Virus record (IMG/VR): IMGVR_UViG_3300030331_005446
Coordinates: 1 to 23,103 of that record
Direction: 5' to 3' (one strand)
Length of the DNA: 23,103 bases
DNA from: a virus
A program made the position numbers and the translations under genes. The notes beneath the pieces were generated by a model. That model did not search any database. It was not told the DNA's origin and saw only the letters and a program-made list of their open reading frames with translations. This document shows positions 7,595 through 20,992 of the stretch, piece after piece (the stretch's first letter is position 1; every line of letters starts with the position of its first letter).

Positions 7595-7822
7595 ATGAAT
7601 AAAAGTAATCCATGGGTTGTTGAAGATCAACCTTTAGGTGTACAAGAAATAGCAAAAGAGCTTGGGTATTCAAGACAAACTGTTAGTTCTTGGCAGCAAC
7701 GCAAACAATTTCCAGAACCAGATGGCCTAGTAAGTGGTGGTCAAGTAAGGATCTGGAAAAGAAAATCTGTTATAGACTGGGCTAACGCAACTGGTCGTAA
7801 TAAGACAGGTGTTGAATTATAA
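7595..7822 (+). CDS. Excisionase/AlpA-like helix-turn-helix protein
   Basis: A 75-residue DNA-binding protein. Residues 13-35 (PLGVQEIAKELGYSRQTVSSWQQ) form a clear MerR/Xis-type HTH, followed by the short wing (FPEPDGLVSGGQVRIWKRKSVIDWAN), the standard layout of phage excisionase or AlpA regulators. AAGGAG is placed five bases before the ATG. It is the first gene of the rightward operon and sits just downstream of a perfect dyad, so autoregulation or control of the divergent leftward operon is likely. No integrase is visible in the window, so excision itself cannot be claimed. Confidence 0.82.
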   Translation: MNKSNPWVVEDQPLGVQEIAKELGYSRQTVSSWQQRKQFPEPDGLVSGGQVRIWKRKSVIDWANATGRNKTGVEL

Positions 7823-7825
7823 AAT

Positions 7826-8713
7826 ATGTCACACCCAGACTTTAATATGTCATGGCGTGACAACATGGATATTGTCTTTGGCAAATATGGTTGGAGACAA
7901 ATACCTTACTATAGAGAAGGAGAGAAAAAAATGGTAGAAGTACCAAAAGAAAGTAGAGATGAAGCCGAAGAAATTGTTACTGAAGCTGAATTAGTTTCAG
8001 TAGAAGATGACAATATTGTCCCAATAAATAACAACAATATTTTTGGAACAACAGATCCTGCTTCATTTATAGAGTATTCAAGACAATACTCAAAACAACT
8101 TGTAGATATTGTTGAAGATCAAAAACTTTATGCAATGATACAGGGTAAAAAATACATGATGTATGAGGGTTGGCAGTTTTTAGGCTCAATGCTGCCTAAT
8201 GCAATAACGCCTCAGACTGAGTGGACTCAAGAAATCAAAGATGACAACGGAGTTGTAATCGGTTTCAAAGCAAGAGTAATAGCAAAAGATGCAATAGGTA
8301 ATACAAGAGGTGCTGGAGAAGCACTTTGTATGAAATCCGAAAGAAACTGGTCAGACAAAGATAACTTTGCTTTGATGTCTATGGCTCAAACTAGAGCAGG
8401 TGGTAAAGCTTTAAGAATGGCTTTATCGTCAATAGTTAAGATTGCAGGTTACGAACCTACACCAAAAGAAGAGATGGATGGTATTCAAATTGAAAATAAT
8501 TTCAATTCGACATCTGAATCCAGTTCTTCTCAAGTAAGTGACTCTAAGGTTGAAATGATGGCAACAGAGAAACAAGTCAACTATCTTAAAGTACTTATAA
8601 ATAAAAATCTTGAGCATGAAATATGTCAAGATGTTTCTTTGCTTGCAAGTATAAATCAAGGTGAGATAAGCAAATCAAAAGCAAGTGAGCTTATAGAAAT
8701 GCTGAAAGGATAA
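7826..8713 (+). CDS. Putative single-strand annealing/recombination protein (Rad52/Erf-like)
   Basis: A 295-residue protein. Residues 85-215 carry a pattern I associate with phage annealing proteins: MIQGKKYMMYEGWQFLGSM (104-122), GFKARVIAKDAIGNTRGAGEALC (146-168), ERNW (172-175), then SMAQTRAGGKALRMAL (185-200) and AGYEPTPKEEMDG. A Ser-rich linker follows, then a C-terminal helical module (ATEKQVNYLKVLINK...SKSKASELIEMLKG) seen at the end of many phage recombinases. It would pair complementary single strands and work with SSB. No obvious ribosome site is present. It starts three bases after the HTH gene and is probably coupled. Confidence 0.72.
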   Translation: MSHPDFNMSWRDNMDIVFGKYGWRQIPYYREGEKKMVEVPKESRDEAEEIVTEAELVSVEDDNIVPINNNNIFGTTDPASFIEYSRQYSKQLVDIVEDQKLYAMIQGKKYMMYEGWQFLGSMLPNAITPQTEWTQEIKDDNGVVIGFKARVIAKDAIGNTRGAGEALCMKSERNWSDKDNFALMSMAQTRAGGKALRMALSSIVKIAGYEPTPKEEMDGIQIENNFNSTSESSSSQVSDSKVEMMATEKQVNYLKVLINKNLEHEICQDVSLLASINQGEISKSKASELIEMLKG

Positions 8714-8715
8714 TT

Positions 8716-9321
8716 ATGAAAACAAAAAATAATCTACGATTTTTAGTAGACGATAAAAACAAGGAGTTTTCTACTTGTTTAGTTTTAGGTCCAAAAGATA
8801 GATTCTATACTCCATCAAGAGGTGGAGAGAACCTTAACGGTGATAAAAGTTATATTCATGTACCAAAAGATTGCATAGTATATTATCCATTTAATTATGT
8901 AAATAGTGACATGATTCTGACTCACCCAGAGTGGATGAGAATAGAACATTCTTTTGAATTTAACGGAACTAGTTATTCCTGGAAATCATTAGGAAGAAAC
9001 AGCAACAGTGAAAATTTACATTTTTGGAGCAATCCATTAGATTTTAGATTTTTGTTAGAAGAATGGGCACAGGCTAATTTATATAAGTATTGGGCACTTA
9101 ATAATTATGGTAATTCAAACTGGAAAGATGAAATTCCTGGCTTTTATGCACAAATGAAAGACTTAGAACAAACTCATAAATATGTTCATTACACTTTTGA
9201 TAATGTGAAAGAAACAGAAACTTTCGGAAGTATTTTTCATCGTGACTTTCACTACAAAGTAAAAGATCAATTTATGGAAGCTGAATTAAGTTCTATTTAT
9301 AAAGATGGAAAAAAAGACTGA
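8716..9321 (+). CDS. Hypothetical protein (201 aa), Trp/Tyr-rich
   Basis: A 201-residue protein, unrecognised. It is rich in aromatic residues (HPEWMRIEHSFEFNGTSYSWKSLG, WSNPLDFRFLLEEWAQANLYKYWAL) and looks beta-rich first and helical later. AAAGGA lies before the ATG. It follows the annealing protein by two bases and overlaps the next gene by 17 bases, so the three are co-expressed. A nuclease partner for the annealing protein is common in this position, but no exonuclease motif is visible. Confidence 0.7.
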   Translation: MKTKNNLRFLVDDKNKEFSTCLVLGPKDRFYTPSRGGENLNGDKSYIHVPKDCIVYYPFNYVNSDMILTHPEWMRIEHSFEFNGTSYSWKSLGRNSNSENLHFWSNPLDFRFLLEEWAQANLYKYWALNNYGNSNWKDEIPGFYAQMKDLEQTHKYVHYTFDNVKETETFGSIFHRDFHYKVKDQFMEAELSSIYKDGKKD

Positions 9322-9763
9322 TTGGGTAACGAGAACCCTTAAGAAAAAAGGTAAATGTGTCGCTTGTTGGCGAGAATTTGCAGTGGGCGACACAGTTGTT
9401 ACACCAATAAAAGATGAAGTTATGTACACACACCTTATTTACTGCCCAAGAGGTGTTGAACACATTGATAATTTATCTGATTATAAAAACTATCTAAAAG
9501 ATCACAAAGGGATTACTGATGAGTCTAAATTAATTTATTTAGGTCATAAATGGGAAATGCACAGAATCCGCAAAGGTTATTTAAATATTGTTGATGTAAA
9601 AGAAGTTACTAAAGAACATAAAGAAGCATATCAACAAATGTTAGATTTTAAGATGAAAAGAGAAAATCAAAATCTAGAAAAACTTTATAAAAAATATAAA
9701 GAAGAACGCCAAAAAATACTTGATCAACTTTTTGATTTAGAAGACGAAAAAGAAAATCTATAA
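9305..9763 (+). CDS. Hypothetical protein with Cys-x2-Cys and long helix (152 aa)
   Basis: A 152-residue basic protein. The N-terminal KGKCVACWREFAVGDTVVTP looks like half of a zinc-ribbon (C-x2-C followed by a beta turn), with a possible second ligand in IYCPRGVEH. The C-terminal 55 residues are a long charged helix (KEAYQQMLDFKMKRENQNLEKLYKKYKEERQKILDQLF), probably a coiled coil. It is the last gene before a strong terminator. Unrecognised. Confidence 0.68.
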   Translation: MEKKTDWVTRTLKKKGKCVACWREFAVGDTVVTPIKDEVMYTHLIYCPRGVEHIDNLSDYKNYLKDHKGITDESKLIYLGHKWEMHRIRKGYLNIVDVKEVTKEHKEAYQQMLDFKMKRENQNLEKLYKKYKEERQKILDQLFDLEDEKENL

Positions 9764-9765
9764 CT

Positions 9766-9806
9766 CTTGTCGACAAGAAAACCCCTTTTAACAGGGGCTT
9801 TCTTTT
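9766..9806 (+). terminator. Rho-independent terminator of the rightward operon, with adjacent palindrome
   Basis: A perfect 12-bp palindrome CTTGTCGACAAG (9766-9777) abuts the hairpin GAAAaCCCC/GGGGcTTTC (9777-9802) that ends in a T-rich tract. It closes the 7.6-9.8 kb operon and marks the left edge of the repeat-bearing island. Confidence 0.75.
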
Positions 9807-9868
9807 ACCTTGGATCTATTGTTACTCATTTAAGGAGAGAGATAATAGATATCTCTACTATACCATCA

Positions 9869-9999
9869 GATTGAAAATAGCTAACAATGAGATTAAAAAT
9901 CTCTAATAATGGGATTGAAAACGCCTAATAATGGGACTGAAAACCAGCAATAATGGGATTGAAAATCACTATTAATGGGATTGAAAATGCCAGATAATG
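9869..9999 (+). repeat. Tandem array of six 22-bp repeats, GATTGAAAA-N7-TAATG
   Basis: Six copies start at 9869, 9891, 9913, 9935, 9957 and 9979, exactly 22 bases apart. Each has GATTGAAAA (copy 2 GATTAAAAA, copy 4 GACTGAAAA), a 7-base stretch that differs in every copy, then TAATG (copy 1 CAATG), with G or A between units. A period of about two helical turns puts all copies on the same DNA face, as in plasmid and phage origin iterons. It lies in a gene-free stretch between a terminator and the ArdA-like gene. A promoter-like pair (TTGTTA, 16 bases, GATAAT) and an AGAGATA/TATCTCT inverted repeat lie just upstream (9819-9858). Confidence 0.9.
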
Positions 10000-10027
10000 A
10001 GTAAATACAGCATCATTTAAGATAAAC

Positions 10028-10047
10028 CCAGCTGCTTGCGCAGCTGG
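10028..10047 (-). terminator. Hairpin terminator of the ArdA-like gene
   Basis: CCAGCTGC-TTGC-GCAGCTGG, a perfect 8-bp stem 27 bases downstream of the ArdA-like stop in the leftward direction, followed by a T-containing but weak tract. The same CCAGCTG arm is used in the terminator at 13490-13511. Confidence 0.55.
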
Positions 10048-10073
10048 ATCTACATGTATTGCGTTAGGAGCGA

Positions 10074-10400
10074 TCAAAAGCCTCTCCAGGTAACGATCCT
10101 TTCTAGTCCCTTTGAGTCCGTTACATACTCCTCGCGCCAGTCTATTTTGGCATCCCTGATCACCGCTTCTTCATCTATATACCATTCCAGGTGCTCTGGG
10201 ATCTCCGCCACATCTGACCAATAACTATAAATATAGTCATCACATTGCTTCTGAGTCCCCATGAAGACGCTGGCAGCAAAATTCTCCCAGTAAGTTTCTT
10301 TCTGATCATAGTTTTCTTTGAAAACTTCCCAGATCTCCAGAATCTCATCTTCATCGAATCTATCTTCTAGATCAGAAGCAGCCTGTTTAAAATTAACCAT
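10074..10400 (-). CDS. ArdA-like antirestriction protein, short form (108 aa)
   Basis: A DNA-mimic antirestriction protein candidate that would block type I restriction enzymes. The C-terminal half (YIYSYWSDVAEIPEHLEWYI, then DEEAVIRDAKI) follows the ArdA pattern Y-E-x-G-x-IP-L-YIDYEAYARDL. The protein is strongly acidic. Typical ArdA has about 165 residues in three domains; this one has 108, so the first domain is missing. I chose the ATG at 10400 because AGGAG precedes it; the frame is open 20 codons further without a site. Base composition is visibly richer in G/C than its neighbours, suggesting separate transfer. It has its own promoter and terminator and is bounded by repeat copies on both sides. 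Confidence 0.72.
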   Translation of the reverse strand: MVNFKQAASDLEDRFDEDEILEIWEVFKENYDQKETYWENFAASVFMGTQKQCDDYIYSYWSDVAEIPEHLEWYIDEEAVIRDAKIDWREEYVTDSKGLERIVTWRGF

Positions 10401-10427
10401 TTTGGCTCCTTTTCTGTCAATAGTATA

Positions 10428-10455
10428 AATATACCAGGTTTCATAATTAATGCAA
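10428..10455 (-). promoter_or_regulatory. Promoter of the ArdA-like gene
   Basis: On the (-) strand: TTGCAT, 16-base spacer, TATATT with an upstream TGG giving an extended -10 (CCTGGTATATT). It is located 28-55 bases upstream of the ATG. Confidence 0.6.
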
Positions 10456-10474
10456 ATCATTGGTTTGCAATTGA

Positions 10475-10543
10475 GATTGAAAATGAATAATAATGGGATT
10501 GAAAATAGATCATAATAGATCGGATTGAAAATGAGTCATAATG
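10475..10543 (+). repeat. Second cluster: three copies of GATTGAAAA-N7-TAATG
   Basis: Copies start at 10475, 10497 and 10523, i.e. 22 and 26 bases apart. The middle copy ends TAATA. The variable 7-mers differ from each other and from the tandem array. It separates the ArdA-like unit from the 17-residue peptide gene. Confidence 0.88.
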
Positions 10544-10550
10544 ACAAAAA

Positions 10551-10587
10551 ACATAGCTGCTCGGCCAAAAAAGCTTTGCAGCCATGT
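10551..10587 (-). terminator. Bidirectional hairpin terminator after peptide gene 1
   Basis: ACATaGCTGC (10551-10560) pairs with GCAGCcATGT (10578-10587), one mismatch. It is flanked by AAAAAA on the left (U-tract for leftward transcripts) and TTTT on the right. Confidence 0.65.
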
Positions 10588-10621
10588 TTTAATTAAGCAT
10601 CTAGCTTTTGCAGCTTAAGAT

Positions 10622-10675
10622 CTATTTACGCTGCTTACGCATCTCTTTTAAGATGGCGCTGATAAAATCAAACAT
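10622..10675 (-). CDS. 17-residue amphipathic peptide, copy 1
   Basis: Encodes MFDFISAILKEMRKQRK. AGGAG lies four bases before the ATG, an extended -10 promoter (TGG-TATAGT, 10706-10711) lies upstream, and a hairpin terminator follows, so this is a complete single-gene unit. The first nine residues are hydrophobic, the last eight strongly basic (net charge about +3), which predicts a membrane- or nucleic-acid-binding helix. Its length and pattern match a second peptide at 16987-17040 residue for residue in the key positions (M-F-D-x-I-x-A-I-L, then basic). Function unknown. A membrane-active peptide, leader peptide or signalling peptide are all possible. Confidence 0.65.
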   Translation of the reverse strand: MFDFISAILKEMRKQRK

Positions 10676-10705
10676 CTTTCTCCTTTCCTTTGATTGTCAT
10701 TTACA

Positions 10706-10735
10706 ACTATACCAGGACTCATAGAAAAACAAGCA
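10706..10735 (-). promoter_or_regulatory. Extended -10 promoter of peptide gene 1
   Basis: (-) strand CCTGG-TATAGT, the same CCTGGTATA block as in the ArdA-like promoter. A TTGTTT is 15 bases upstream as a weak -35. Confidence 0.5.
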
Positions 10736-10745
10736 TATCACTCGT

Positions 10746-10774
10746 TTGCAAATAATACAAATTCTGTTTATAAT
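10746..10774 (+). promoter_or_regulatory. Promoter of the rightward acidic-protein operon
   Basis: TTGCAA (10746-10751), 17-base spacer, TATAAT (10769-10774), then AGGAGG and ATG at 10800. One of the best sigma70-like promoters in the window. Its -35 is again TTGCA. Confidence 0.7.
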
Positions 10775-10799
10775 TAATTATTGACAATTAGGAGGTTCA

Positions 10800-11150
10800 A
10801 TGAAAGAACTATTATATAGAGAAGATAGTGAGTTTAGTGAGGGGTATGTATATAGTGAATACCGTTCTGATAAACCACTAAAGCATAACCAAAATATTAA
10901 TGCACCTGAAGAGATTGCATTATTAGTTGGTAAAACAATTACGAAAGCTGAATACTTGATTTCTGACTTTCGTTCAGTAACCGATCCGAGCTTCGAAGAA
11001 GAAGAGACAGGAGAAGAAACAGATTTCGTGATGCTGACTCTTTCTGATGAAATTGGACAGGAATTCAAGATATACATATCAAGAGACCCTGAAATGAACT
11101 CTAGTGGATACATTAGAGGCGATTTAGAGTTGGCTTCTGATGAGCGATAA
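10800..11150 (+). CDS. Acidic hypothetical protein (116 aa)
   Basis: The first gene of a five-gene rightward operon in the accessory island. The protein has roughly twice as many Asp/Glu as Lys/Arg and includes the run SFEEEETGEET. The C-terminal part looks like an all-beta domain (DFVMLTLSDEIGQEFKIYIS). AGGAGG precedes the ATG. Unrecognised. The acidity and position beside ArdA/ArdC homologues are compatible with a DNA-mimic or other anti-defence role, but that is only context. A 177-codon frame on the other strand is a shadow. Confidence 0.72.
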   Translation: MKELLYREDSEFSEGYVYSEYRSDKPLKHNQNINAPEEIALLVGKTITKAEYLISDFRSVTDPSFEEEETGEETDFVMLTLSDEIGQEFKIYISRDPEMNSSGYIRGDLELASDER

Positions 11151-11166
11151 CAAAGAGGGTTTCTAC

Positions 11167-11328
11167 ATGATTGTTTCTGAATCATATACGGTAGAAATAC
11201 CTGATGTAAATAATATAGATTCAGCCATCGAAGAATTCCACAACGCAGGAAGTGTAGATGTTTATTATGTAGAACATCAAGGTTGGGAGTTTGAAGAGGG
11301 CGATAACTCACATTTAGAGGAGGAATAA
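11167..11328 (+). CDS. Acidic hypothetical protein (53 aa)
   Basis: Starts MIVSESYTVEIPDVNNIDSA with AGAGGG seven bases upstream. An ATG nine codons earlier overlaps the preceding gene but has no site. The beta-alpha-beta look (YTVEIPDVNNIDSAIEEFHNAGSVDVYYVEHQGWEFEEGD) resembles small phage/plasmid accessory domains. Ends HLEEE, whose codons GAGGAGGAA form the ribosome site of the next gene, joined by TAATG. Confidence 0.65.
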   Translation: MIVSESYTVEIPDVNNIDSAIEEFHNAGSVDVYYVEHQGWEFEEGDNSHLEEE

Positions 11329-11510
11329 TGACAGATATTTTTCAAACAACAGATTTTATGGAAAATGAATACACCTTATTGCAAGAACAAGTTATTCATT
11401 TTAGAAATCTTGTTAGTGAAATTGATATAAGCAAGTACGATCAAACAGGGTATATATCCGTTGTAAACAGTATATATTATGAGATTTTTATAGCTCAAGA
11501 GGAGGAATAA
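11328..11510 (+). CDS. Hypothetical protein (60 aa)
   Basis: A 60-residue acidic helical protein (MTDIFQTTDFMENEYTLLQE...VVNSIYYEIFIAQEEE). It starts at a TAATG junction right behind GAGGAG and ends with the same EEE-stop-ATG junction. Unrecognised. It may be a small helical bundle. Confidence 0.68.
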   Translation: MTDIFQTTDFMENEYTLLQEQVIHFRNLVSEIDISKYDQTGYISVVNSIYYEIFIAQEEE

Positions 11511-11788
11511 TGACATTAAGAGAATTAATGAAAGATATAAAAGAAAGTTGTACAGAACTAGAGTTAGAAGATTATCTTGATGTAGATTTATCATTTCAAT
11601 TAATGGTTAAAAATGAAGATTTACAAGATGATGATATATGGGATATTGATTTATCAAGCCCTAATATTATATGTTCAAGTGGTAGTTTTTTTGTTGAGTT
11701 AGGTATGACTGTTGAAAATAATATACCTACTAAGGAAGAATATAAATATTACTTCGAAGATATAAACCCAATAGATGAGGAGGAATAA
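11510..11788 (+). CDS. Acidic hypothetical protein (92 aa)
   Basis: A 92-residue acidic protein (MTLRELMKDIKESCTELELEDYLDVDLSF...DDDIWDIDL). The opening 'MTLRELM..I' followed by a beta domain resembles small accessory proteins of phages and conjugative elements. It ends IDEEE and couples to the next gene. Function unknown. Confidence 0.7.
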   Translation: MTLRELMKDIKESCTELELEDYLDVDLSFQLMVKNEDLQDDDIWDIDLSSPNIICSSGSFFVELGMTVENNIPTKEEYKYYFEDINPIDEEE

Positions 11789-12193
11789 ATGATAGTTTAT
11801 TATGCACACTTATATAACAAAAAAAGACAAGATCCAATGTTTTATTATGGAGAAGAATACCCTATTGCTATCTACAAGCATAAAGGTTTGACTTGGGAAA
11901 TGTGGTGTTACGGAATTACAGAAATTACCTATAAAGAAAAGAAATTTTTTAATGCTGCGGAATTTTGTAAATCCGATCATATGTTAGATAAACTTATTGA
12001 TTCAGGAAAAGCAGTAGTTGATTACAATAGTTGGTTTGAACTTAGACCTTTAAATAGATCTTTAGATATATCTTATTGGGAACACGGCATGTATGATGAG
12101 GTTTATTACAGCCCTGAAGAGATAACTGATGAAATATTAGATGAATATATTAGATTAGAAATGGATATTAAAGATCAGCTGATCAGCAAATAA
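11789..12193 (+). CDS. Hypothetical protein (134 aa)
   Basis: The last gene of the acidic operon: 134 residues, aromatic-rich (MFYYGEEYPIAIYKHKGLTWEMWCYGITEITYKEKKFF), C-terminal acidic helix. Preceded by GAGGAGGAATAA. Unrecognised. It ends 25 bases before the next repeat copy, with GATC sites in the last codons. Confidence 0.7.
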   Translation: MIVYYAHLYNKKRQDPMFYYGEEYPIAIYKHKGLTWEMWCYGITEITYKEKKFFNAAEFCKSDHMLDKLIDSGKAVVDYNSWFELRPLNRSLDISYWEHGMYDEVYYSPEEITDEILDEYIRLEMDIKDQLISK

Positions 12194-12218
12194 GCATATA
12201 TAGATCTATTGAAAATGG

Positions 12219-12239
12219 GATTGAAAATGTGCGATAATG
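12219..12239 (+). repeat. GATTGAAAA-N7-TAATG, single copy (plus half copy upstream)
   Basis: A complete copy at 12219, with an extra ATTGAAAA half-site 12 bases upstream. It lies between convergent transcription units and precedes an A-tract and the terminator at 12262. Confidence 0.88.
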
Positions 12240-12261
12240 TCAAAAAAAATAGATGCAAAAC

Positions 12262-12283
12262 AAAAAGCCACACTAAAAGTGTG
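12262..12283 (-). terminator. Terminator of the four-gene leftward operon
   Basis: CACACT-AAA-AGTGTG hairpin (12269-12283) followed leftward by TTTTTG. Classical rho-independent form, 19 bases after the stop codon at 12302. Confidence 0.75.
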
Positions 12284-12301
12284 ACTTAATGTTTCTAATA
12301 T

Positions 12302-12523
12302 TTAAGATTCTTCCCAAAGAAACTCTATACCGATACCTAAATCGTTTAACCAACTAATACATTCACTTTGAAAAGCTTTAGTTAATTCCTGTTTAGAAAT
12401 GCTGCGGAAATTAGATGGGTTATTTTCATCTATCCAACTTTCAAAGTGTGCATCGATAAAGTCACTATCTAGACTTTCATTATCCGTGTCTACCTGGATA
12501 AGAAACTTTTTACGATAATTCAT
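12302..12523 (-). CDS. Hypothetical protein (73 aa)
   Basis: A 73-residue acidic protein beginning MNYRKKFLIQVDTDNESLDS and ending LGIGIEFLWEES. Beta-alpha type by pattern. The ATG overlaps the upstream stop (ATGA). The last gene of the leftward unit bounded by repeats at 12219 and 13368. Unrecognised. Confidence 0.67.
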   Translation of the reverse strand: MNYRKKFLIQVDTDNESLDSDFIDAHFESWIDENNPSNFRSISKQELTKAFQSECISWLNDLGIGIEFLWEES

Positions 12524-12756
12524 TTCATCACTATCCTTAATGCGAACTCAAGACCTTTGAGAAAACCTACCTCAAAGTCTATTTCGCTGTCGCCTCTTGA
12601 ACTTCCTGCGATAAAATCAATAAGTTCATCAGCATTGTGCCATTCTTTAGGAAAGTCAAACTCGTCATAGAAACGAGCTTTACCCATAACCTCTATACTT
12701 TCAATAGAAGAATTGATAGTTTCACTTAATTGCATTTGAATATCTTGAATATCCAT
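12520..12756 (-). CDS. Hypothetical protein (78 aa)
   Basis: Starts MDIQDIQMQLSETINSSIES at a TAATG junction behind the Glu-encoded GAGGAAGAG ribosome site; the frame is open seven codons further upstream inside the previous gene. The helical C-terminus DFEVGFLKGLEFALRIVM looks like a small dimerisation helix. Unrecognised. Confidence 0.67.
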   Translation of the reverse strand: MDIQDIQMQLSETINSSIESIEVMGKARFYDEFDFPKEWHNADELIDFIAGSSRGDSEIDFEVGFLKGLEFALRIVMK

Positions 12757-12980
12757 TACTCTTCCTCCAAATTCCAAAAGTAATCTTGAAGTTCAGCTTC
12801 ATCTATCTGTTCCCCAATTTCTGCATGTTGTGGGTTTCTAATTAAGTCTTTGAATATGTCGTAATGGTCTTCCACCAATTCATTTACTGCATATTCTCTT
12901 AACTCATCATTGTTCTTACCTCTACTAGCAATGCTGAAATTAAATTCAACAAAGTGGTAGATTTCTTTTTCTTTATCCAT
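12756..12980 (-). CDS. Acidic hypothetical protein (74 aa)
   Basis: A 74-residue acidic protein (DKEKEIYHFVEFNFSIASRG..., ending YFWNLEEE). TAATG junctions on both sides with the ribosome sites encoded in Glu codons. Unrecognised. Co-expression with its neighbours is certain from the overlaps. Confidence 0.67.
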   Translation of the reverse strand: MDKEKEIYHFVEFNFSIASRGKNNDELREYAVNELVEDHYDIFKDLIRNPQHAEIGEQIDEAELQDYFWNLEEE

Positions 12981-13294
12981 TACTCTTCCTCCATAAGTAT
13001 TGAGTCAACAAATGCAGCTAGATGTAAACCATATAGAGCATCTTCGGTGCGTACTTTATCGCTGCCTCTAAACTCTATTTGAAAGCCATCTTCCATTTTT
13101 GGTAATTGAATCATGATATCCAGGTAACTAGAGTCTCTTTCTATTTCTCCTTGTACCACATTTTGAATTACCTCTTTAGCTACTGGTATCATAGCTAAAG
13201 GTATTGGTGGATAACAATTGCCTCTAAAGTGTGCTTTTAAACCCTCTTCAAGGCCTAATATTTGAGCAACATTCATTGCTGTGTTATATCCCAT
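12980..13294 (-). CDS. Conserved accessory-element protein (104 aa)
   Basis: The first gene of the leftward unit, 104 residues. The central part (GLEEGLKAHFRGNCYPPIPLAMIPVAKEVIQNVVQGE) follows a pattern I recall from small proteins of plasmids and phages, L-A-H-(F/L)-N-YPP-P-IP-A-AI. The role is unknown. AAGGAG precedes the ATG and a clear promoter lies upstream. The memory of this family is not precise enough for a name. Confidence 0.72.
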   Translation of the reverse strand: MGYNTAMNVAQILGLEEGLKAHFRGNCYPPIPLAMIPVAKEVIQNVVQGEIERDSSYLDIMIQLPKMEDGFQIEFRGSDKVRTEDALYGLHLAAFVDSILMEEE

Positions 13295-13328
13295 TTCTTT
13301 CTCCTTTTTTAATACAATACATACCTAT

Positions 13329-13356
13329 ATATTAGTTGAATATAGCCGATATGCAA
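13329..13356 (-). promoter_or_regulatory. Promoter of the four-gene leftward unit
   Basis: (-) strand TTGCAT, 16-base spacer, TAATAT. The -35 sits in GATATGCAAAT (+ strand), the same sequence as in the 7559-7580 operator. The repeat at 13368 is immediately upstream of the -35. Confidence 0.6.
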
Positions 13357-13367
13357 ATCTTAAATGA

Positions 13368-13388
13368 GATTGAAAATGAGTACTAATG
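13368..13388 (+). repeat. GATTGAAAA-N7-TAATG, single copy
   Basis: A complete copy at 13368, followed by a run of nine A and AAGATCTAAGGAG. Together with the copy at 13430 it bounds a 41-base mini-interval. Confidence 0.88.
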
Positions 13389-13429
13389 ATTAAAAAAAAA
13401 GATCTAAGGAGATAGATGAATCGAAATGA

Positions 13430-13450
13430 GATTGAAAATGCGACATAATG
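13430..13450 (+). repeat. GATTGAAAA-N7-TAATG, single copy read by a 10-codon frame
   Basis: A complete copy at 13430. AAGGAG at 13406 and an ATG at 13416 open a 10-codon frame (MNRNEIENAT) that runs into the repeat and stops at its TAA. It may be chance, but the ribosome site is strong. Confidence 0.85.
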
Positions 13451-13489
13451 CTATAAAAAATAATTCATGATCAAAAAATCCAAAAAGAA

Positions 13490-13511
13490 ACCAGCTGGGC
13501 GGCCAGCTGGT
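13490..13511 (-). terminator. Terminator of the six-gene leftward operon
   Basis: ACCAGCTGG-GCGG-CCAGCTGGT, a perfect 9-bp stem, followed leftward by TTCTTTTTGG. It lies 47 bases past the stop at 13558. Confidence 0.78.
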
Positions 13512-13557
13512 CTCTTCTCGTATCGTACCTCAAAGGGAGCGTACAGATCCTTAAACG

Positions 13558-13743
13558 CTAAATTTGTATTATCTTCTGCTCTTCCATTTCCTCGATAGTG
13601 CTATCAAGGTCACAGTCAGATATATTGTAATACTTATCCCAAAAAGTATCTTCATCTAATGGTAAATCTTCTTCTAGGACCTCTAACTCAAAATATTGCA
13701 TTTGCTTAACAGCTACAAAATATTTTTTTGTTTTTTTATCCAT
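13558..13743 (-). CDS. Hypothetical protein (61 aa)
   Basis: I start it at the ATG at 13743 (MDKKTKKYFVAVKQMQYFEL), which overlaps the stop of the upstream gene. The frame is open 19 codons further but inside that gene. Acidic C-terminal half (LEEDLPLDEDTFWDKYYN...IEEMEEQ). Similar in style to the 14289 protein (short beta-alpha domains with an acidic face). Unrecognised. Confidence 0.62.
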   Translation of the reverse strand: MDKKTKKYFVAVKQMQYFELEVLEEDLPLDEDTFWDKYYNISDCDLDSTIEEMEEQKIIQI

Positions 13744-14134
13744 AAAACTCGCCCTCATCTCCCTTTGGTTCGAATACTTGGATATCTCGGTCATTACCAT
13801 CTAAATCGATATACATACCTATCTGACTACCGTTATCATCTTTTACTATTGTTACTTCATAACTACCATCACCATGAGTTGTAGAAGTGTTAAATGCAAC
13901 TCCTCCATCAATCATACCGTATGGTTTATCTCCGAAGATAGTAGCTTCACAAAATTTAGTGTATTGATTAAGTTCTCCGATACTCTCATCAGGTAAAACT
14001 TCCTCTCTGTCATCACTAAACTTAAGTTGACCATCTCCAATTGTTTCAGGGTGAGCCAAAGTGTAGCATGGGTCTCCCACAGCGAGTTGCCCACTATCTA
14101 CAGATACTCTACCCACTTTTTCATATTCGTACAT
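13736..14134 (-). CDS. Conserved phage/plasmid protein with SGQ-x4-DPCY motif (132 aa)
   Basis: A 132-residue beta-rich protein. The N-terminal VGRVSVDSGQLAVGDPCY (residues 7-24) and a later THGDGSYEV and IDLDG match a family I recognise as recurring in phages and mobile elements ('v.vDSGq..i.DPCY', then 'GDG.Y.V'), reminiscent of DUF4241-like proteins. No enzyme activity is known to me. GGAGGAAGAATAATG gives a strong start coupled to the upstream 51-residue gene. Its presence here supports the reading of this island as exchangeable accessory DNA. Confidence 0.75.
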   Translation of the reverse strand: MYEYEKVGRVSVDSGQLAVGDPCYTLAHPETIGDGQLKFSDDREEVLPDESIGELNQYTKFCEATIFGDKPYGMIDGGVAFNTSTTHGDGSYEVTIVKDDNGSQIGMYIDLDGNDRDIQVFEPKGDEGEFYG

Positions 14135-14289
14135 TATTCTTCCTCCTTAGTTTTTTCTCTTACCTCATAATAAGGTAAATTGTCTGGTCTTATATTTTGA
14201 AACCAATCCATTACATCTTCGTGTAATTCTTCTTGGTCATCAACATTAAACGGTACTTCAAAATTAAAACTAACCCATAAAGTAACCAT
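14134..14289 (-). CDS. Hypothetical protein (51 aa) in a TAATG-coupled operon
   Basis: A 51-residue protein, MVTLWVSFNFEVPFNVDD..., ending VREKTKEEE. AAGGAG sits nine bases upstream of the ATG, and both ends are TAATG junctions (with the stop of the 14289-14471 gene and the start of the 13736-14134 gene). The beta strand opening followed by an acidic helix and a proline-rich turn is like its neighbours. Unrecognised but surely a gene. Confidence 0.68.
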   Translation of the reverse strand: MVTLWVSFNFEVPFNVDDQEELHEDVMDWFQNIRPDNLPYYEVREKTKEEE

Positions 14290-14471
14290 TATTTTTTCTC
14301 CTTAACTATTTCTTCTACATGACATACGAACTTGTCCATTAAGTTTTTATTAACAATTTCTACTGCCTCTTTTTCTGTATCTGCTTCTACCCACATACTG
14401 TTTGCATAGTCTTGATAGTTTTCTCTTGGTAATACACTTATATTGTGATGTACCTCAAATAGTTTTTTCAT
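14289..14471 (-). CDS. Small beta-alpha accessory protein (60 aa)
   Basis: A 60-residue protein: MKKLFEVHHNISVLPRENYQ, then MWVEADTEKEAVEIVNKNLMDKFVCHVEEI. The order 'beta strand - V-A-dT-xxEA-xxi - beta' is the common small phage/plasmid domain in which acidic loops alternate with helices. TAATG junctions at both ends. Function unknown. Confidence 0.67.
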   Translation of the reverse strand: MKKLFEVHHNISVLPRENYQDYANSMWVEADTEKEAVEIVNKNLMDKFVCHVEEIVKEKK

Positions 14472-14746
14472 TATTCTTCCTCCTCTGTACTGTCATCATA
14501 ATATTCAAACCAAAGGTCTTCATCTTCCCACTTCTTTTCGCAAACAAAGTAAGCAAGTCTGTTAATCCTCCAATAACCAGCTTGAATAATTCCAACTCCA
14601 TCTTCTTCTGTCCAAGTCCAAATTTGTTTAGGATCCACAGTCGCTAAATATTTGTCATGGGTATCAAAAAAGATATCATTACTACTTGGATTTTGCATGG
14701 GCTGATATGTTTCAACCCATACATCCATATCTAATAAGTCAGACAT
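14471..14746 (-). CDS. Conserved accessory protein (91 aa)
   Basis: Begins MSDLLDMDVWVETYQPMQNP at the TAATG junction with the preceding gene. The sequence IWTWTEEDGVGIIQAGYWRINRLAYFVCEKKW fits a recurring accessory-element pattern ('iWT..e.dg...i..G.h.vNR.gY..te.pW'). Ends with four Glu whose codons make the next ribosome site. A soluble beta-rich protein of unknown function. Confidence 0.72.
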   Translation of the reverse strand: MSDLLDMDVWVETYQPMQNPSSNDIFFDTHDKYLATVDPKQIWTWTEEDGVGIIQAGYWRINRLAYFVCEKKWEDEDLWFEYYDDSTEEEE

Positions 14747-15795
14747 TATATATGACAATCTACGACTACTCCAACATAGTCGCCATTTTCAATATATTTT
14801 TCTAACATATTATCAATAAGTTTGTCTGTGTTTTTGATAAACGCTTCTCGTTCATCATGCTCCATACCATCAAGTGATGACAAACCAAACCAACCCATTT
14901 CGCCATAGTCTGTCCAACCCTCCTCATCAGTGAGAAAAGATTGAAACTCTAATTTCTTTCTTGATGTGATTTCGAAAAGCTCATCTTTTGTGTAGTACAC
15001 AATATTTGAGTGTTCTCTAGTTTCATAATCAAAATCACTTGACTTGATAATTGAATTATCAATCAAGTTTTCTTTTTTCCATGCTTCAAGTTCTTTTTCA
15101 TTTTCGGCTAAACATGGTTTAGGAAATTTATGAAAAGAAAGAGTTTGCCAGAACTCTACTTCCTCATATCTAAGAACTTCTTTAAGGTCGCTTATATAAC
15201 CGTTATCGCCAATACTGTTCCAACGACCACCAAAGACATACCAATCCCAACGAGCTGAGGGGTTTTGATAATATACATCACACCAACCCTCAGCAGTTTT
15301 CTCAATTTCATTTGAGTTAGCAAACTCATCAATGAGCATGCTCATATGTTTTTCGGTATTCGCCATGAACTTTTCTGAACTAAATAATTCATAAAGCTCA
15401 TCAAAGTCTTTCATTTCCTTATCAAGTTCGCTATCTGTCCATCCATTGTTTTCTTTATCAAAAGATTTTATTTGGTGATTTTTGATGAAATTAACCCTAC
15501 GGTCTCTTTCCTCAATTAATTTTTCACACAGCAAACTTGTCTCACCGTTTTGATAAAAATTAAGAACATCTGTAATCAAGTAATTTATTTCTAAATTTCT
15601 CTCAAAATATTCTTTTTGTAGCTCCTCATTATCTGTATGTTCTATGTAAGGTTCTAATAATTCATCTACCTTATTAGATATATACTGATTTGCGAATTGT
15701 GTCATGCCTCCAAACTCCTCGGCTTCACGCTCACGCAATGGATTTGCTACTACTTCATCTTTCTTTACTATTACTAGTACAGGAAAGTGTGACAT
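14746..15795 (-). CDS. Conserved phage/plasmid protein with WDWY-x2-GGRW signature (349 aa)
   Basis: The first and largest gene of the six-gene leftward unit. The opening MSHFPVLVIVKK and the block NPSARWDWYVFGGRW (residues about 182-196) are the signature of a family widespread on phages, plasmids and integrative elements ('MSHFtvlVi...LaPY.E', 'NP.akWDWY.iGGRW'). Its role is not known to me. The middle is a long helical region and the C-terminus DYVGVVVDCHI is conserved-looking. AGGAGG precedes the ATG. Upstream lies a candidate promoter (TTGTTG, 16 bases, TATTAA) and the repeat at 15899. Confidence 0.8.
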   Translation of the reverse strand: MSHFPVLVIVKKDEVVANPLREREAEEFGGMTQFANQYISNKVDELLEPYIEHTDNEELQKEYFERNLEINYLITDVLNFYQNGETSLLCEKLIEERDRRVNFIKNHQIKSFDKENNGWTDSELDKEMKDFDELYELFSSEKFMANTEKHMSMLIDEFANSNEIEKTAEGWCDVYYQNPSARWDWYVFGGRWNSIGDNGYISDLKEVLRYEEVEFWQTLSFHKFPKPCLAENEKELEAWKKENLIDNSIIKSSDFDYETREHSNIVYYTKDELFEITSRKKLEFQSFLTDEEGWTDYGEMGWFGLSSLDGMEHDEREAFIKNTDKLIDNMLEKYIENGDYVGVVVDCHI

Positions 15796-15898
15796 AATTG
15801 TCCTCCTTATATATACAATACATAATTTAATTTTAATACTTTACTTCATGTTTGCAACAAACTTCAGAGAAATTTAGCGAAGCTTGATCTAAAAACGA

Positions 15899-15919
15899 GA
15901 TTGAAAATGTGCACTAATG
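15899..15919 (+). repeat. GATTGAAAA-N7-TAATG, single copy between divergent units
   Basis: A complete copy at 15899 in the 296-base gap between the leftward six-gene unit and the rightward ArdC-like gene. The rest of the gap is very AT-rich and holds five GATC sites and a near-palindrome GATCAAAAAATTTTTAGATC (15939-15958). No -35/-10 pair for the rightward gene is convincing, although TTTGCATATC recurs at 16037. Confidence 0.88.
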
Positions 15920-16091
15920 CAATAAAAATAAAGGCCTTGATCAAAAAATTTTTAGATCATAATTTAAAAATTGCGGTGATCTCGAATTTGCAAGTATGGA
16001 TCAAGACTCAAAAAAAAATATTATATGAATTGATTTATTTGCATATCTTCGGTAAACTCTAAAGAGTATTGTATATTAAAAGGAAAAAAAA

Positions 16092-16994
16092 ATGTCAGTT
16101 AAAAATGAGCGAGTCGAAAAAATAACAGACCAGTTGCAGAAAAAATTAGCATCTTTTGAAGTTGATGCGGAAGAGTTAGACCAATATTTAGAGTTCTGCG
16201 CAAGGTTTTATCAAGGGCGCAGCCATAACAATAATTTATTAATCTTTATTCATAAAATGAATTCAGAACTAGTAGCAACATATAAACAATGGAAAACAGT
16301 CCATAATAGAATTGTTGTAGCTTGTACTATGTGCCGAGCTCTTGCAAATGCTAAATGCAAATGTTCAGATATTACAAAACCAATTAGAATTCCACAATTT
16401 AGACCCTTGGTCTATACCCACGACAAAGAAGGTAAAGAACTAGAAGAGACTAAAATTTTTTACGCTGATTTTTATGTTTATGACATAGAAGACACGGAAC
16501 CGTTAAACGATAAAGGGTTAAGAGTTCATAACCCAAATAAACCAATTCTGTTAAAAGGTTTAGAAGGTCAAGAGATTATCGATAAAGCAAAAATTTATTT
16601 AAAGAAAAAAAATTGGTCTTATGATATCGAATCTGACTTAGGGGGACCTAACGGACTTTGCAACCCAATGTCAAAAGAAATAAAAATTAAAAATGCTGAT
16701 GTAAAACAAATGGCAAAAACAACCATACATGAACTAAGCCATTTTCATCTTCACGGTTTAGAATATAACTACCAAGAATGTAGGGGAATAGCTGAAGTAC
16801 AAGCAGAGAGCGTAGCCTATACCGTTTTAAAATTCTTGGGGCTAGACTCTTCCGACTACTCTATAAGATACATCATTGGCTGGAGTCAAGGGGATTCTAA
16901 AAGGTTTAAAGAATCATTAAAAGAAATTGTTGAGACATCACAACAAATTATAAAAGACTTAGAACTCACGGAAGGAGAATTAAAAAATGTTTGA
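16092..16994 (+). CDS. ArdC-like antirestriction protein/zinc metallopeptidase with Cys-cluster insertion
   Basis: A 300-residue protein in two parts. The N-terminal domain (FYQGRSHNNNLLIFIHKMNSE...TYKQWK, residues 39-68; ADFYVYDIEDTEPL at 125-138) follows the ArdC single-strand-binding domain. The C-terminal part has the metallopeptidase motif HELSH (213-217), with third-ligand region AEVQAESVAY (234-243) and the usual YIIGWS ending. ArdC protects incoming single-stranded DNA from restriction. Unusually, the loop where ArdC has a Lys/Gly-rich segment carries four cysteines (C78, C81, C89, C91), a possible second metal site. AAGGA lies before the ATG. Its stop overlaps the start of peptide gene 2. 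Confidence 0.82.
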   Translation: MSVKNERVEKITDQLQKKLASFEVDAEELDQYLEFCARFYQGRSHNNNLLIFIHKMNSELVATYKQWKTVHNRIVVACTMCRALANAKCKCSDITKPIRIPQFRPLVYTHDKEGKELEETKIFYADFYVYDIEDTEPLNDKGLRVHNPNKPILLKGLEGQEIIDKAKIYLKKKNWSYDIESDLGGPNGLCNPMSKEIKIKNADVKQMAKTTIHELSHFHLHGLEYNYQECRGIAEVQAESVAYTVLKFLGLDSSDYSIRYIIGWSQGDSKRFKESLKEIVETSQQIIKDLELTEGELKNV

Positions 16995-17040
16995 TTTGAT
17001 AAAAGCAATATTAAGAAGACAAAACAAAAAACGAGATTGA
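16987..17040 (+). CDS. 17-residue amphipathic peptide, copy 2, coupled to ArdC-like gene
   Basis: Encodes MFDLIKAILRRQNKKRD. The ATG overlaps the stop region of the ArdC-like gene (ATGTTTGA), with AGGAG nine bases upstream inside that gene's last codons. Its own TGA lies inside the repeat copy at 17035 (GATTGA). It has the same length as copy 1 (10622-10675) with M-F-D-x-I-x-A-I-L conserved and a basic tail (net charge about +4). Two separate contexts with good ribosome sites and conserved sequence argue against chance. Function unknown. Confidence 0.65.
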   Translation: MFDLIKAILRRQNKKRD

Positions 17041-17055
17041 AAATTTCACATAATG
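17035..17055 (+). repeat. GATTGAAAA-N7-TAATG, single copy
   Basis: A complete copy at 17035 with variable core TTTCACA. Its first bases supply the stop codon of peptide gene 2. It is followed by an A-tract and terminator. Confidence 0.88.
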
Positions 17056-17096
17056 CAAAAAAAAAATGGGAGAGTTTAGGCTCTCCCAAATTTTTT
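17056..17096. terminator. Bidirectional terminator between convergent units
   Basis: GGGAGAG-TTTAG-(G)CTCTCCC hairpin (17068-17087) with ten A on the left and TTTTTT on the right. It serves both the ArdC/peptide unit and the leftward gene at 17113. Confidence 0.82.
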
Positions 17097-17112
17097 GGAT
17101 CTTAAAACGCTA

Positions 17113-17457
17113 TTAAGTTTTTTCTAATTCTTTATCTATGTCTCTAATAAGTTCTCTTAAATTACTTTTGACATATGAAACCCAGGATTTTTCAAAATCA
17201 GGGTTATCTAAGTCTTTTAAAGTTTCCTCAAGATTAGTAGCAATACGACCCATTTTTTTTCTTGATTGTTCTGTATAATTTCCATCATAATCAAATTCAA
17301 CATTATAACTATCTAATTTTTTGACCATAGTGTAATTAGTATTTGGAATATCCATTCTTAAACACAATTCAACATAGTTCATCTCGTTATTAGTCTCATC
17401 AAATTCAATTATGATTTTAACGATACGATTATCGATTTCTACATCAACAGTTTTCAT
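17113..17457 (-). CDS. Hypothetical protein (114 aa)
   Basis: A 114-residue protein, single gene in its unit. First half beta-rich (TVDVEIDNRIVKIIIEFDE), second half a charged helical domain (KKMGRIATNLEETLKDLDNPDFEKSWVSYVKSNLRELIRDIDKEL). AAGGAG precedes the ATG. A TATAAT with TG extension lies at 17491-17496 on the (-) strand. Bounded by repeats at 17035 and 17581. Unrecognised. Confidence 0.7.
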   Translation of the reverse strand: MKTVDVEIDNRIVKIIIEFDETNNEMNYVELCLRMDIPNTNYTMVKKLDSYNVEFDYDGNYTEQSRKKMGRIATNLEETLKDLDNPDFEKSWVSYVKSNLRELIRDIDKELEKT

Positions 17458-17490
17458 AATTACTCCTTTTAATTAATCAATACAATAACA

Positions 17491-17520
17491 ATTATAACAT
17501 ACCAGGGAACGCTAATTATA
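17491..17520 (-). promoter_or_regulatory. Promoter of the 17113-17457 gene
   Basis: (-) strand CCCTGGTATGTTATAAT: a consensus -10 (17491-17496) with upstream TG, sharing the CCTGGTAT block with the ArdA-like and peptide-1 promoters. No clear -35. Confidence 0.55.
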
Positions 17521-17580
17521 AGTTTTCGAGATTAGATCAAAATTATTAGCGCATTAAGATCCATTTAATTTTTAAAATGA

Positions 17581-17601
17581 GATTGAAAATTTCACAGGAT
17601 A
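17581..17601 (+). repeat. Degenerate last copy of the repeat
   Basis: GATTGAAAA at 17581 with the same variable core (TTTCACA) as the copy at 17035, but GGATA in place of TAATG. It marks the right end of the repeat-bearing island. The 164 bases from 17458 hold this copy, two GATC sites and the promoter, no gene. Confidence 0.75.
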
Positions 17602-17621
17602 AAACAAAAAATAAACAAAAA

Positions 17622-17744
17622 TTATGTATTCCAAAAATCGGCACAACGACCACGGCACCAATAAGTTTTATATTTAAACCTTTTATCTATATCTATCTCT
17701 AATTGATAACCACATTTAGAACAATGTTTTTTAAATTTATTCAT
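17622..17744 (-). CDS. Zinc-ribbon micro-protein (40 aa)
   Basis: A 40-residue protein: MNKFKKHCSKCGYQLEIDID then a basic stretch and YWCRGRCADFWNT. C-x2-C and C-x3-C pairs give a four-Cys zinc site. The ATG overlaps the stop of the upstream 34-residue gene (ATGA), so translation is coupled. Likely a nucleic-acid or protein-binding zinc module. No closer assignment. Confidence 0.62.
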   Translation of the reverse strand: MNKFKKHCSKCGYQLEIDIDKRFKYKTYWCRGRCADFWNT

Positions 17745-17845
17745 TGTTTAAACCATTTCTTTAATTTTCTAGGTTTTCTGTAATATGGAATTGTTACATC
17801 CATATACTTATATTTATATTTTCCACAGTCACATTTATATTTCAT
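17741..17845 (-). CDS. Micro-protein (34 aa) with CDC motif, basic tail
   Basis: MKYKCDCGKYKYKYMDVTIP followed by YYRKPRKLKKWFKQ. AGAGGA lies five bases before the ATG. Short, basic, with two Cys, it might pair with the next zinc-ribbon protein, whose start overlaps its stop. Function unknown. Confidence 0.55.
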   Translation of the reverse strand: MKYKCDCGKYKYKYMDVTIPYYRKPRKLKKWFKQ

Positions 17846-19807: not shown

Positions 19808-20992
19808 TTATAAATTTCTTAAAGAATAATCTTTAAAAGCATCATATGTTGAATGCCACAGCATAGGGTTATATACAATACCTCTAATTTGTGTTTCATC
19901 ATTTTTAGCCAAAGACCAAAAGTTACCTATGATAGATTCAGCTTTATGATCCCAAGCTAATTTAGAGTGTTTCAACTTAAATTTACCATCAGTAGCATTG
20001 CTTATTGCTCTAGATCCTGCAATGATTGGCATAATCAAGCCATTCAGCAGCTTATGAGTAGGCTCATCTGTAGCAAATAAATGATTTGTACCTCTATTTA
20101 CTTGAAATAGTTTTGAATATTTCTTAAGTGATACTTTGCCTTCAAATATACCAGTAGCGATCTCAAATGCTGTAGATTGCACATAGTCTCTAAATTTAAG
20201 AATATCTACAATGCTATTTGCATACCTTAGAAAGTCTTGTTTGCTAACAGTTGTATCACTAGATATTTTATTATCAAAGTGTTTGATAATATTTACTTTG
20301 TTTGAGTAAGACTCTCTAGGCCAATATCTATCAATAGCTTCATCATCATCTTTATTAGGCATAACAGCATAAATCATACTTAATATGTCTAAAACATTTA
20401 CACAACCAGTATCGTTTTGAAAGTATTGAACATTACCCTCATAAGGTGTATTGACTAAAGATTCTTTAATCCAATCAAATTGACCAGTTAAATTAAGTAT
20501 TGAATATCTAGATACTGCAATAGAAGTACTAGCACCCTCAACTACTTTTACTTTAGATTCAGGATCAAGCCCAACAATGATTCGAGAAAACACTTTTTTG
20601 TTTCCAGGGATCATTCCAAGCTTATCAGCTTTTTGTATTGCTTGATATATATGTCCACCATTAGCAAGTCCGTCACCTTTACTACCATTGAATTTAAGAA
20701 CAAGTTCTTTTTTATCATTGTCGTAAAAGCCCTCAGAAGCAAACATCAACATTCCATTAGCTGCATATTCAAATATATCGTTATCAGCTGTTAGATTGTT
20801 ACGCATACCTTCATATGCTGCTGCATCTGAGTTTTGTGCTCTTGGATTTGGATCCATTGGAATATCTGTTTTTGCAACAGATTGAGCGTATAAGGGACCT
20901 ACTAATTCGTAGATGTTTCTGTTTGTAGGGTTATCGATCCTACGGATTGCATCCGTTTTTATACGGACAGTTTTTGGTAATGGCATAGCCAT
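19808..20992 (-). CDS. AIPR-family (abortive infection) protein
   Basis: A 394-residue protein matching the AIPR pattern: NPR at 49-51, YEGMRNNLTADNDIFEYAANGMLMFAS (60-86, the 'L...F.y.NNGi...a' block) and GLANGGHIYQAIQKA (108-122, the invariant NGGH/NGGQ-T block). AIPR proteins are named from abortive phage resistance systems and are also carried by phages and plasmids, where they may act against competitors or host defence. The mechanism is not established to my knowledge. TAGGAGGTGA precedes the ATG. It is a single-gene unit with its own promoter and terminator, as expected for an accessory gene. No partner toxin or nuclease is adjacent. Confidence 0.78.
   Translation of the reverse strand: MAMPLPKTVRIKTDAIRRIDNPTNRNIYELVGPLYAQSVAKTDIPMDPNPRAQNSDAAAYEGMRNNLTADNDIFEYAANGMLMFASEGFYDNDKKELVLKFNGSKGDGLANGGHIYQAIQKADKLGMIPGNKKVFSRIIVGLDPESKVKVVEGASTSIAVSRYSILNLTGQFDWIKESLVNTPYEGNVQYFQNDTGCVNVLDILSMIYAVMPNKDDDEAIDRYWPRESYSNKVNIIKHFDNKISSDTTVSKQDFLRYANSIVDILKFRDYVQSTAFEIATGIFEGKVSLKKYSKLFQVNRGTNHLFATDEPTHKLLNGLIMPIIAGSRAISNATDGKFKLKHSKLAWDHKAESIIGNFWSLAKNDETQIRGIVYNPMLWHSTYDAFKDYSLRNL

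Follow-up and report, generated by a model that had tools for sequence, protein, structure and literature searches.

The window analysed here is a 23,103-nucleotide stretch of viral DNA (IMG/VR record IMGVR_UViG_3300030331_005446) that lies within a virus record of 31,650 bases, G000. Between positions 9869 and 17601 it holds an island that appears to be a row of self-contained transcription units (Table 1), with a short element, GATTGAAAA-N7-TAATG, marking every unit boundary and the two island ends in one direction, one to six copies per boundary. Across a family of related phages, this element is conserved, restricted to the island, located at unit boundaries and fixed in polarity, while the genes between its copies turn over. 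The window contains 14 copies with no or one mismatch and one degenerate copy, all on the plus strand, and every one of the fifteen start positions given by the initial annotation is correct. Dinucleotide-preserving shuffles yield 0.06 ± 0.24 copies at up to one mismatch, with a maximum of one, against the 14 found, and GATTGAAAA itself occurs 13 times on the plus strand of the window and never on the minus strand. The exact pattern has ten matches in the 31,650-base record, all within the island, and a reversed control pattern has none; the last 8.6 kb contains only chance-level matches with three mismatches, which bears out the earlier statement that no copy lies outside 9.8–17.6 kb. The degenerate copy, with three mismatches, is made credible by a nearly identical sequence, GATTGAAAATTTCACAGAATA, at a junction close to the right island end in the related record G001.

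Table 1. Features of the window in and beside the island (aa, amino acids; bp, base pairs)
Feature	Position	Strand	Remarks
Helix-turn-helix (HTH) protein, 75 aa; candidate binder of the element	7595..7822	+	phrog_597, excisionase-type matches
Conserved left-flank gene; candidate single-strand annealing protein	7826..8713	+	Weak fold matches
Left-edge cluster of six tandem copies	9869..9999	+	22-bp period (9869, 9891, 9913, 9935, 9957, 9979)
Unit 1: ArdA-like gene	10074..10400	-	Longest frame reaches 10460; Pfam ArdA E 5e-5 to 7e-5, below curated cut-off
Three element copies	10475..10543	+	Starts 10475, 10497, 10523
Unit 2, minus side: peptide 1	10622..10675	-	17 aa, basic, MFDFISAILKEMRKQRK
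Example of a gene-oriented promoter	10746..10774	+	TTGCAA-17-TATAAT
Unit 2, plus side: five-frame operon	10800..12193	+	116, 53-62, 60, 92 and 134 aa
One element copy	12219..12239	+	25 bp downstream of the plus operon
Example of a terminator hairpin right of the element	12265..12287	-
Unit 3: four-gene operon	12302..13294	-
Two element copies	13368..13450	+	Starts 13368, 13430; 62 bp apart
Unit 4: six-gene operon	13558..15795	-	Includes 349-aa protein (phrog_10079)
One element copy	15899..15919	+	Between divergent units
Unit 5: ArdC-like protein	16092..16994	+	HExxH motif; phrog_7245 anti-restriction E 7.5e-4; relatives in G018, G023
Unit 5: peptide 2	16987..17040	+	17 aa, basic, MFDLIKAILRRQNKKRD; stop codon is the element's TGA
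One element copy	17035..17055	+	Between convergent units; peptide 2 terminates in it
Terminator-like hairpin	17067..17088	.	Readable on both strands
Unit 6: 114-aa gene	17113..17457	-
Degenerate right-edge copy	17581..17601	+	Three mismatches

Motif scans uncovered six further IMG/VR records (G001, G005, G018, G023, G024 and G025) in each of which 11–14 copies match with no more than one mismatch. The records all come from metagenomes and may be incomplete, their host is inferred, and the islands and copies are related by descent, so that counts are not independent. Every related record searched that contains the conserved left-flank gene and sequence past it has the island; G025 has an island and lacks the left-flank gene in its fragment, and the close relative G032 stops before the island. 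In two near-complete genomes of 85 and 78 kb, the motif is limited to the island except for one two-mismatch site. Copies are spread neither over both strands nor genome-wide, and no searched relative covering the region was found without the element, the two points on which the initial annotation had staked its modular reading. Further viral contigs that have just one or two copies (L056, L128, G028-G031) were not counted as islands, and relatives sought through the 349-aa island protein yielded none. A host origin of the motif was rejected: a stricter form of it gave six isolated matches, in unrelated organisms, across 257 Gb of cellular genomes. The 412-aa protein encoded in the right part of the record has 41 related loci in IMG/VR and is about 30% identical to proteins of Mycobacterium, Streptomyces and Propionibacterium phages, several of them annotated as MRE11-type exonucleases. 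This resemblance to actinobacteriophage proteins makes an actinobacterial host likely, and marine Actinomarinales, an order whose phages have been described (PMC7771536), would fit the low GC content. G018 also encodes several DNA methyltransferases (three of N6_N4 type, one of C5 type and one MT-A70) and an S-adenosylmethionine synthetase.

The consensus over 92 copies reads AAAA(C/T)GRGATTGARAATNNSNNNTAATG, with AAAAA five bases further on in five of the seven islands. The central 7-mer, first described as variable, is not free: in the family, about 95% of copies have T at position 10 and about 94% have G or C at position 13, with 72 distinct 7-mers among 86 copies. A variant motif in G005 and G025 has a conserved downstream block, ATNAGTY..TTTGAT..CG, and usually occurs as two copies 54 bp apart, the preferred spacing being 22 bp in the window and 38 bp in other lineages. 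A tandem pair with one-base spacing, the 22-bp arrangement, has no match in IMG/VR. A/T-rich tracts recur near element positions -4, 7, 18 and 29, at intervals of about one helical turn, a spacing suggestive of a bent site with protein bound to it. Protein binding would also be the most economical cause of conservation, since separated positions are kept while the middle varies. Two other identities were considered and set aside. The sequence logo rejects a sigma-70 promoter within the motif, as no -10 box is conserved 16–18 bp from TTGAAA, where one group has a conserved A-run and G005 and G025 have other sequence. The CRISPR-repeat likeness of GATTGAAA was dropped, there being no longer repeat and no structure; no Rfam family reaches its gathering score in window 9700–17800.

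Once the islands are turned so that the motif reads forward, 32 of their 54 motif junctions separate two minus units, 15 separate converging units (+|-), six diverging units (-|+) and one two plus units. All 54 contain a forward motif, including the 22 flanked by a plus unit on one or both sides. The gene family of window 10800–11150 is found in either orientation relative to the motif, depending on the island. Across the seven islands about 93 copies face forward and 3–4 face backward, the reverse count being four when one mismatch is allowed, so the strand-locking claimed for the window holds there and is very strong in the family without being absolute. Reverse copies at 9047–9196 of G023 and 11673–11721 of G018 (both turned) oppose forward copies at their junction, forming local inverted pairs. 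Density is uneven: in seven of seven islands no junction is denser than the left edge, which has two to six copies per island and 24 in total, a sum never attained in 20,000 random junction draws. The gene left of this edge points into the island in every case; in G025 this neighbour differs from that of the window and G001.

Promoters are separate from the element. Those of the units follow gene orientation and have a TTGCAW box, often together with a GCATATC..GATATGC dyad, and no motif stands between divergent promoter pairs within one unit. A dyad-like promoter element, TTGCATATC-N3-GATATGC, recurs ahead of TATAAT and tracks gene direction (for instance upstream of G005 6079, G025 4463 and window 13294 and 16092, with a few examples outside the island), and the island units may share it as an operator. 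Most units have their own terminators, and most minus units end in a hairpin with a T-run immediately right of the motif. The initial annotation placed a copy on both sides of each unit, which is right, and an A-tract and hairpin beside each copy, which needs qualifying: the hairpin is usually the right-hand unit's terminator, and some junctions have none. The motif is not a general end of translated frames, because only peptide 2 and its G001 counterpart enter it among the frames examined; that counterpart, at 11954 of G001 (turned), is a stretch similar to peptide 2 plus element, kept without the ArdC-like gene. A search for a single-subunit RNA polymerase gave no match, its control being silent as well.

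The explanation we favour, with slightly less than even confidence, is that the element is a polar protein-binding boundary, or insulator, in a modular host-takeover island, and that the junction blocks double as homology linkers. The binder would be a protein of the phage, with the 75-aa HTH protein encoded next to the island as the likeliest candidate. Once bound, it would form a polar insulator, or a roadblock to transcription that enters rightward from the left operon, on the side where copies are densest. Junction blocks of about 100–150 bp, each made of element and terminator, would serve as homology linkers, and units would be exchanged by ordinary homologous or annealing recombination that thereby preserves polarity. 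Either of two causes could account for the constant polarity: a polar insulator turned towards the rightward operon at the left, or inheritance by direct-repeat recombination. As a binder, the HTH protein is the best candidate: its gene is present in six related records besides the window and is missing from no island-bearing record that holds the locus, and the protein is most divergent in G005, which carries the variant motif. Several observations weigh against a polar boundary. Reverse copies exist in G018 (one or two) and G023 (two), one of them probably within a gene, and inner converging junctions show no visible excess of copies over other junctions. Several relatives' plus units have a hairpin before the motif, where a roadblock would therefore be redundant. 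Finally, the HTH protein is put forward as binder on the strength of its neighbourhood.

Gene exchange bears on a second explanation, in which the element is first of all a recombination linker: its short homology would permit gain, loss and swap of cassettes in fixed orientation through phage homologous or annealing recombination, similar to promoter early stem-loop (PeSL) elements, and protein binding would be secondary. Genes called by a simple open-reading-frame script number about 117 in the seven islands, and some 60% have a detectable relative in another island. Gene order is conserved only locally, and content changes between relatives while the motifs remain, as the initial annotation had anticipated from its idea of a modular island and of differing content between kept copies. 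In favour of a linker, copies flank every unit and both island ends; in G001 two other genes take the place of the window's unit 1, and unit D is not the same in G005 as in G025, with matching neighbours in both cases. The ArdC-like unit occurs in three islands, motif-flanked each time and with different neighbours. Junction blocks of about 100 bp are 70–84% alike within and between G005 and G025, and adjacency is kept in another island for 13 of 22 gene pairs within units against one of eight across motifs, a comparison that is small, non-independent and confounded by operons. Against it, DNA homology at the C|D junction of G005 and G025 continues through motif and terminator up to the next gene, so the exchange point is not in the motif, and genes are also swapped within units, where there are no motifs. 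Homology alone also leaves unexplained why fixed positions are conserved around a weak middle, and the neighbouring gene encodes only a candidate annealing protein. For the 260-aa neighbour, fold matches to Sak, Mgm101 and RAD52 were tied with matches to ribosomal proteins. An all-against-all listing showed no paralogous pair, and thus no standing cassette duplication, within an island. A linker as the primary role is possible but unlikely.

Constant polarity whatever the gene direction disfavours a simple promoter, operator or stoperator. Specifically, a dispersed asymmetric operator or stoperator, whose copies a phage repressor or activator binds to control the island units, seems quite unlikely. 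The element shares with stoperators (PMC6550527) and the MrpR-bound SPBRE (PMC10516654) an asymmetric, intergenic, multi-copy occurrence in one phage family, yet its orientation is constant along the genome and independent of transcription, its distance to the left unit's start codon ranges from 41 to 246 bp, and the promoters have their own dyad-like element. A polar replication, packaging or partition signal, such as a fork barrier, iteron or centromere array, is very unlikely. Constant polarity and direct tandem arrays would suit it, and the phage encodes a replication-initiator-like and a ParB-like protein, but the copies are dispersed at unit boundaries across 7–10 kb rather than grouped at an origin. 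In G018 the left-flank replication block with the ParB-like and initiator-like genes is inverted relative to the island, and motif polarity is the same. GC skew changes sign around the island and is uninformative on replication, because it follows gene direction. Least probable of all is a cassette system of integron-like or dif-module-like type, with the element as its site-specific recombination site: sites do flank every cassette in one orientation and are densest at one end, but neither Phage_integrase (PF00589) nor Resolvase (PF00239) matches in nine records, where controls matched (PF00589 in 14 of 14 control genomes) and a host or unrecognised recombinase is possible, the centres mismatch, no inverted arms appear on inspection, and the resolved swap breaks outside the motif. 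Among the recognition sites listed in the initial annotation, that of a regulatory or insulating protein is the most economical; replication and packaging have no positive evidence, and site-specific recombination is disfavoured.

Island proteins are short and acidic, with a median isoelectric point of 4.2–4.8 versus 5.3–7.7 for flanking genes. Named matches comprise the ArdA-like and ArdC-like proteins, both with weak scores, and M78-type peptidases, and a PADLOC-DB search returned nothing. The original label of an anti-defence island draws on the sub-cut-off ArdA match, the ArdC-like match and acidity, and does not extend to most genes. From these sequence features an anti-defence role is plausible, and host takeover by the island would probably take that form. 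Just right of the island, the window encodes on its minus strand (19808-20992) a 394-aa protein with a Pfam AIPR match of abortive infection type and relatives in G001 and G024. A more specific proposal is that the element is a dedicated polar insulator which a small DNA-binding protein of the phage recognises, and that it keeps plug-in counter-defence units apart in transcription and exchangeable in fixed orientation, with need of neither recombinase nor shared promoter; in this full form the proposal is unlikely. Even so, the element offers a sequence beacon for an accessory reservoir of small genes, nearly all of unknown function. For finding new anti-defence proteins in this marine phage group, whose hosts are probably actinobacteria, screening the genes that the copies enclose is a direct approach. 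The family also provides a natural test of how accessory units are kept separate and exchangeable without a detectable site-specific recombinase, and possibly an instance of a phage boundary element of a new kind.

Comparison with known systems places the element beside several classes of dispersed repeat. Halovirus HF2 likewise has conserved repeats between viral genes (PMC8707807), but these carry promoters, unlike the elements here. Acinetobacter dif modules (PMC13141974) are also small gene modules between short asymmetric sites; dif sites, however, alternate in orientation and recombine when their 6-bp spacers match, which requires inversely oriented sites, whereas the elements here face one direction and have differing centres. 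The stoperators of Cluster A mycobacteriophages (PMC6550527, PMC9283540) are short, asymmetric, intergenic, multi-copy sites of actinobacteriophages as well, but they are mostly oriented relative to transcription, and the elements here relative to the genome. SPBRE of Bacillus phage SPbeta (PMC10516654) is similarly a dispersed intergenic repeat of one phage group and is bound by a phage protein, MrpR; it lies in promoter regions, while here the promoter is separate and the element marks boundaries between units whatever their arrangement. PeSL elements of T4-type phages, as cited in PMC4503421, differ by their internal promoter, and the element described here has a polarity independent of genes and occurs in one island only. 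With PeSL, as that citation presents them, it shares the form of a conserved intergenic element repeated through a heavily shuffled, high-turnover gene region, with an adjacent stem-loop terminator at most junctions before a minus unit.

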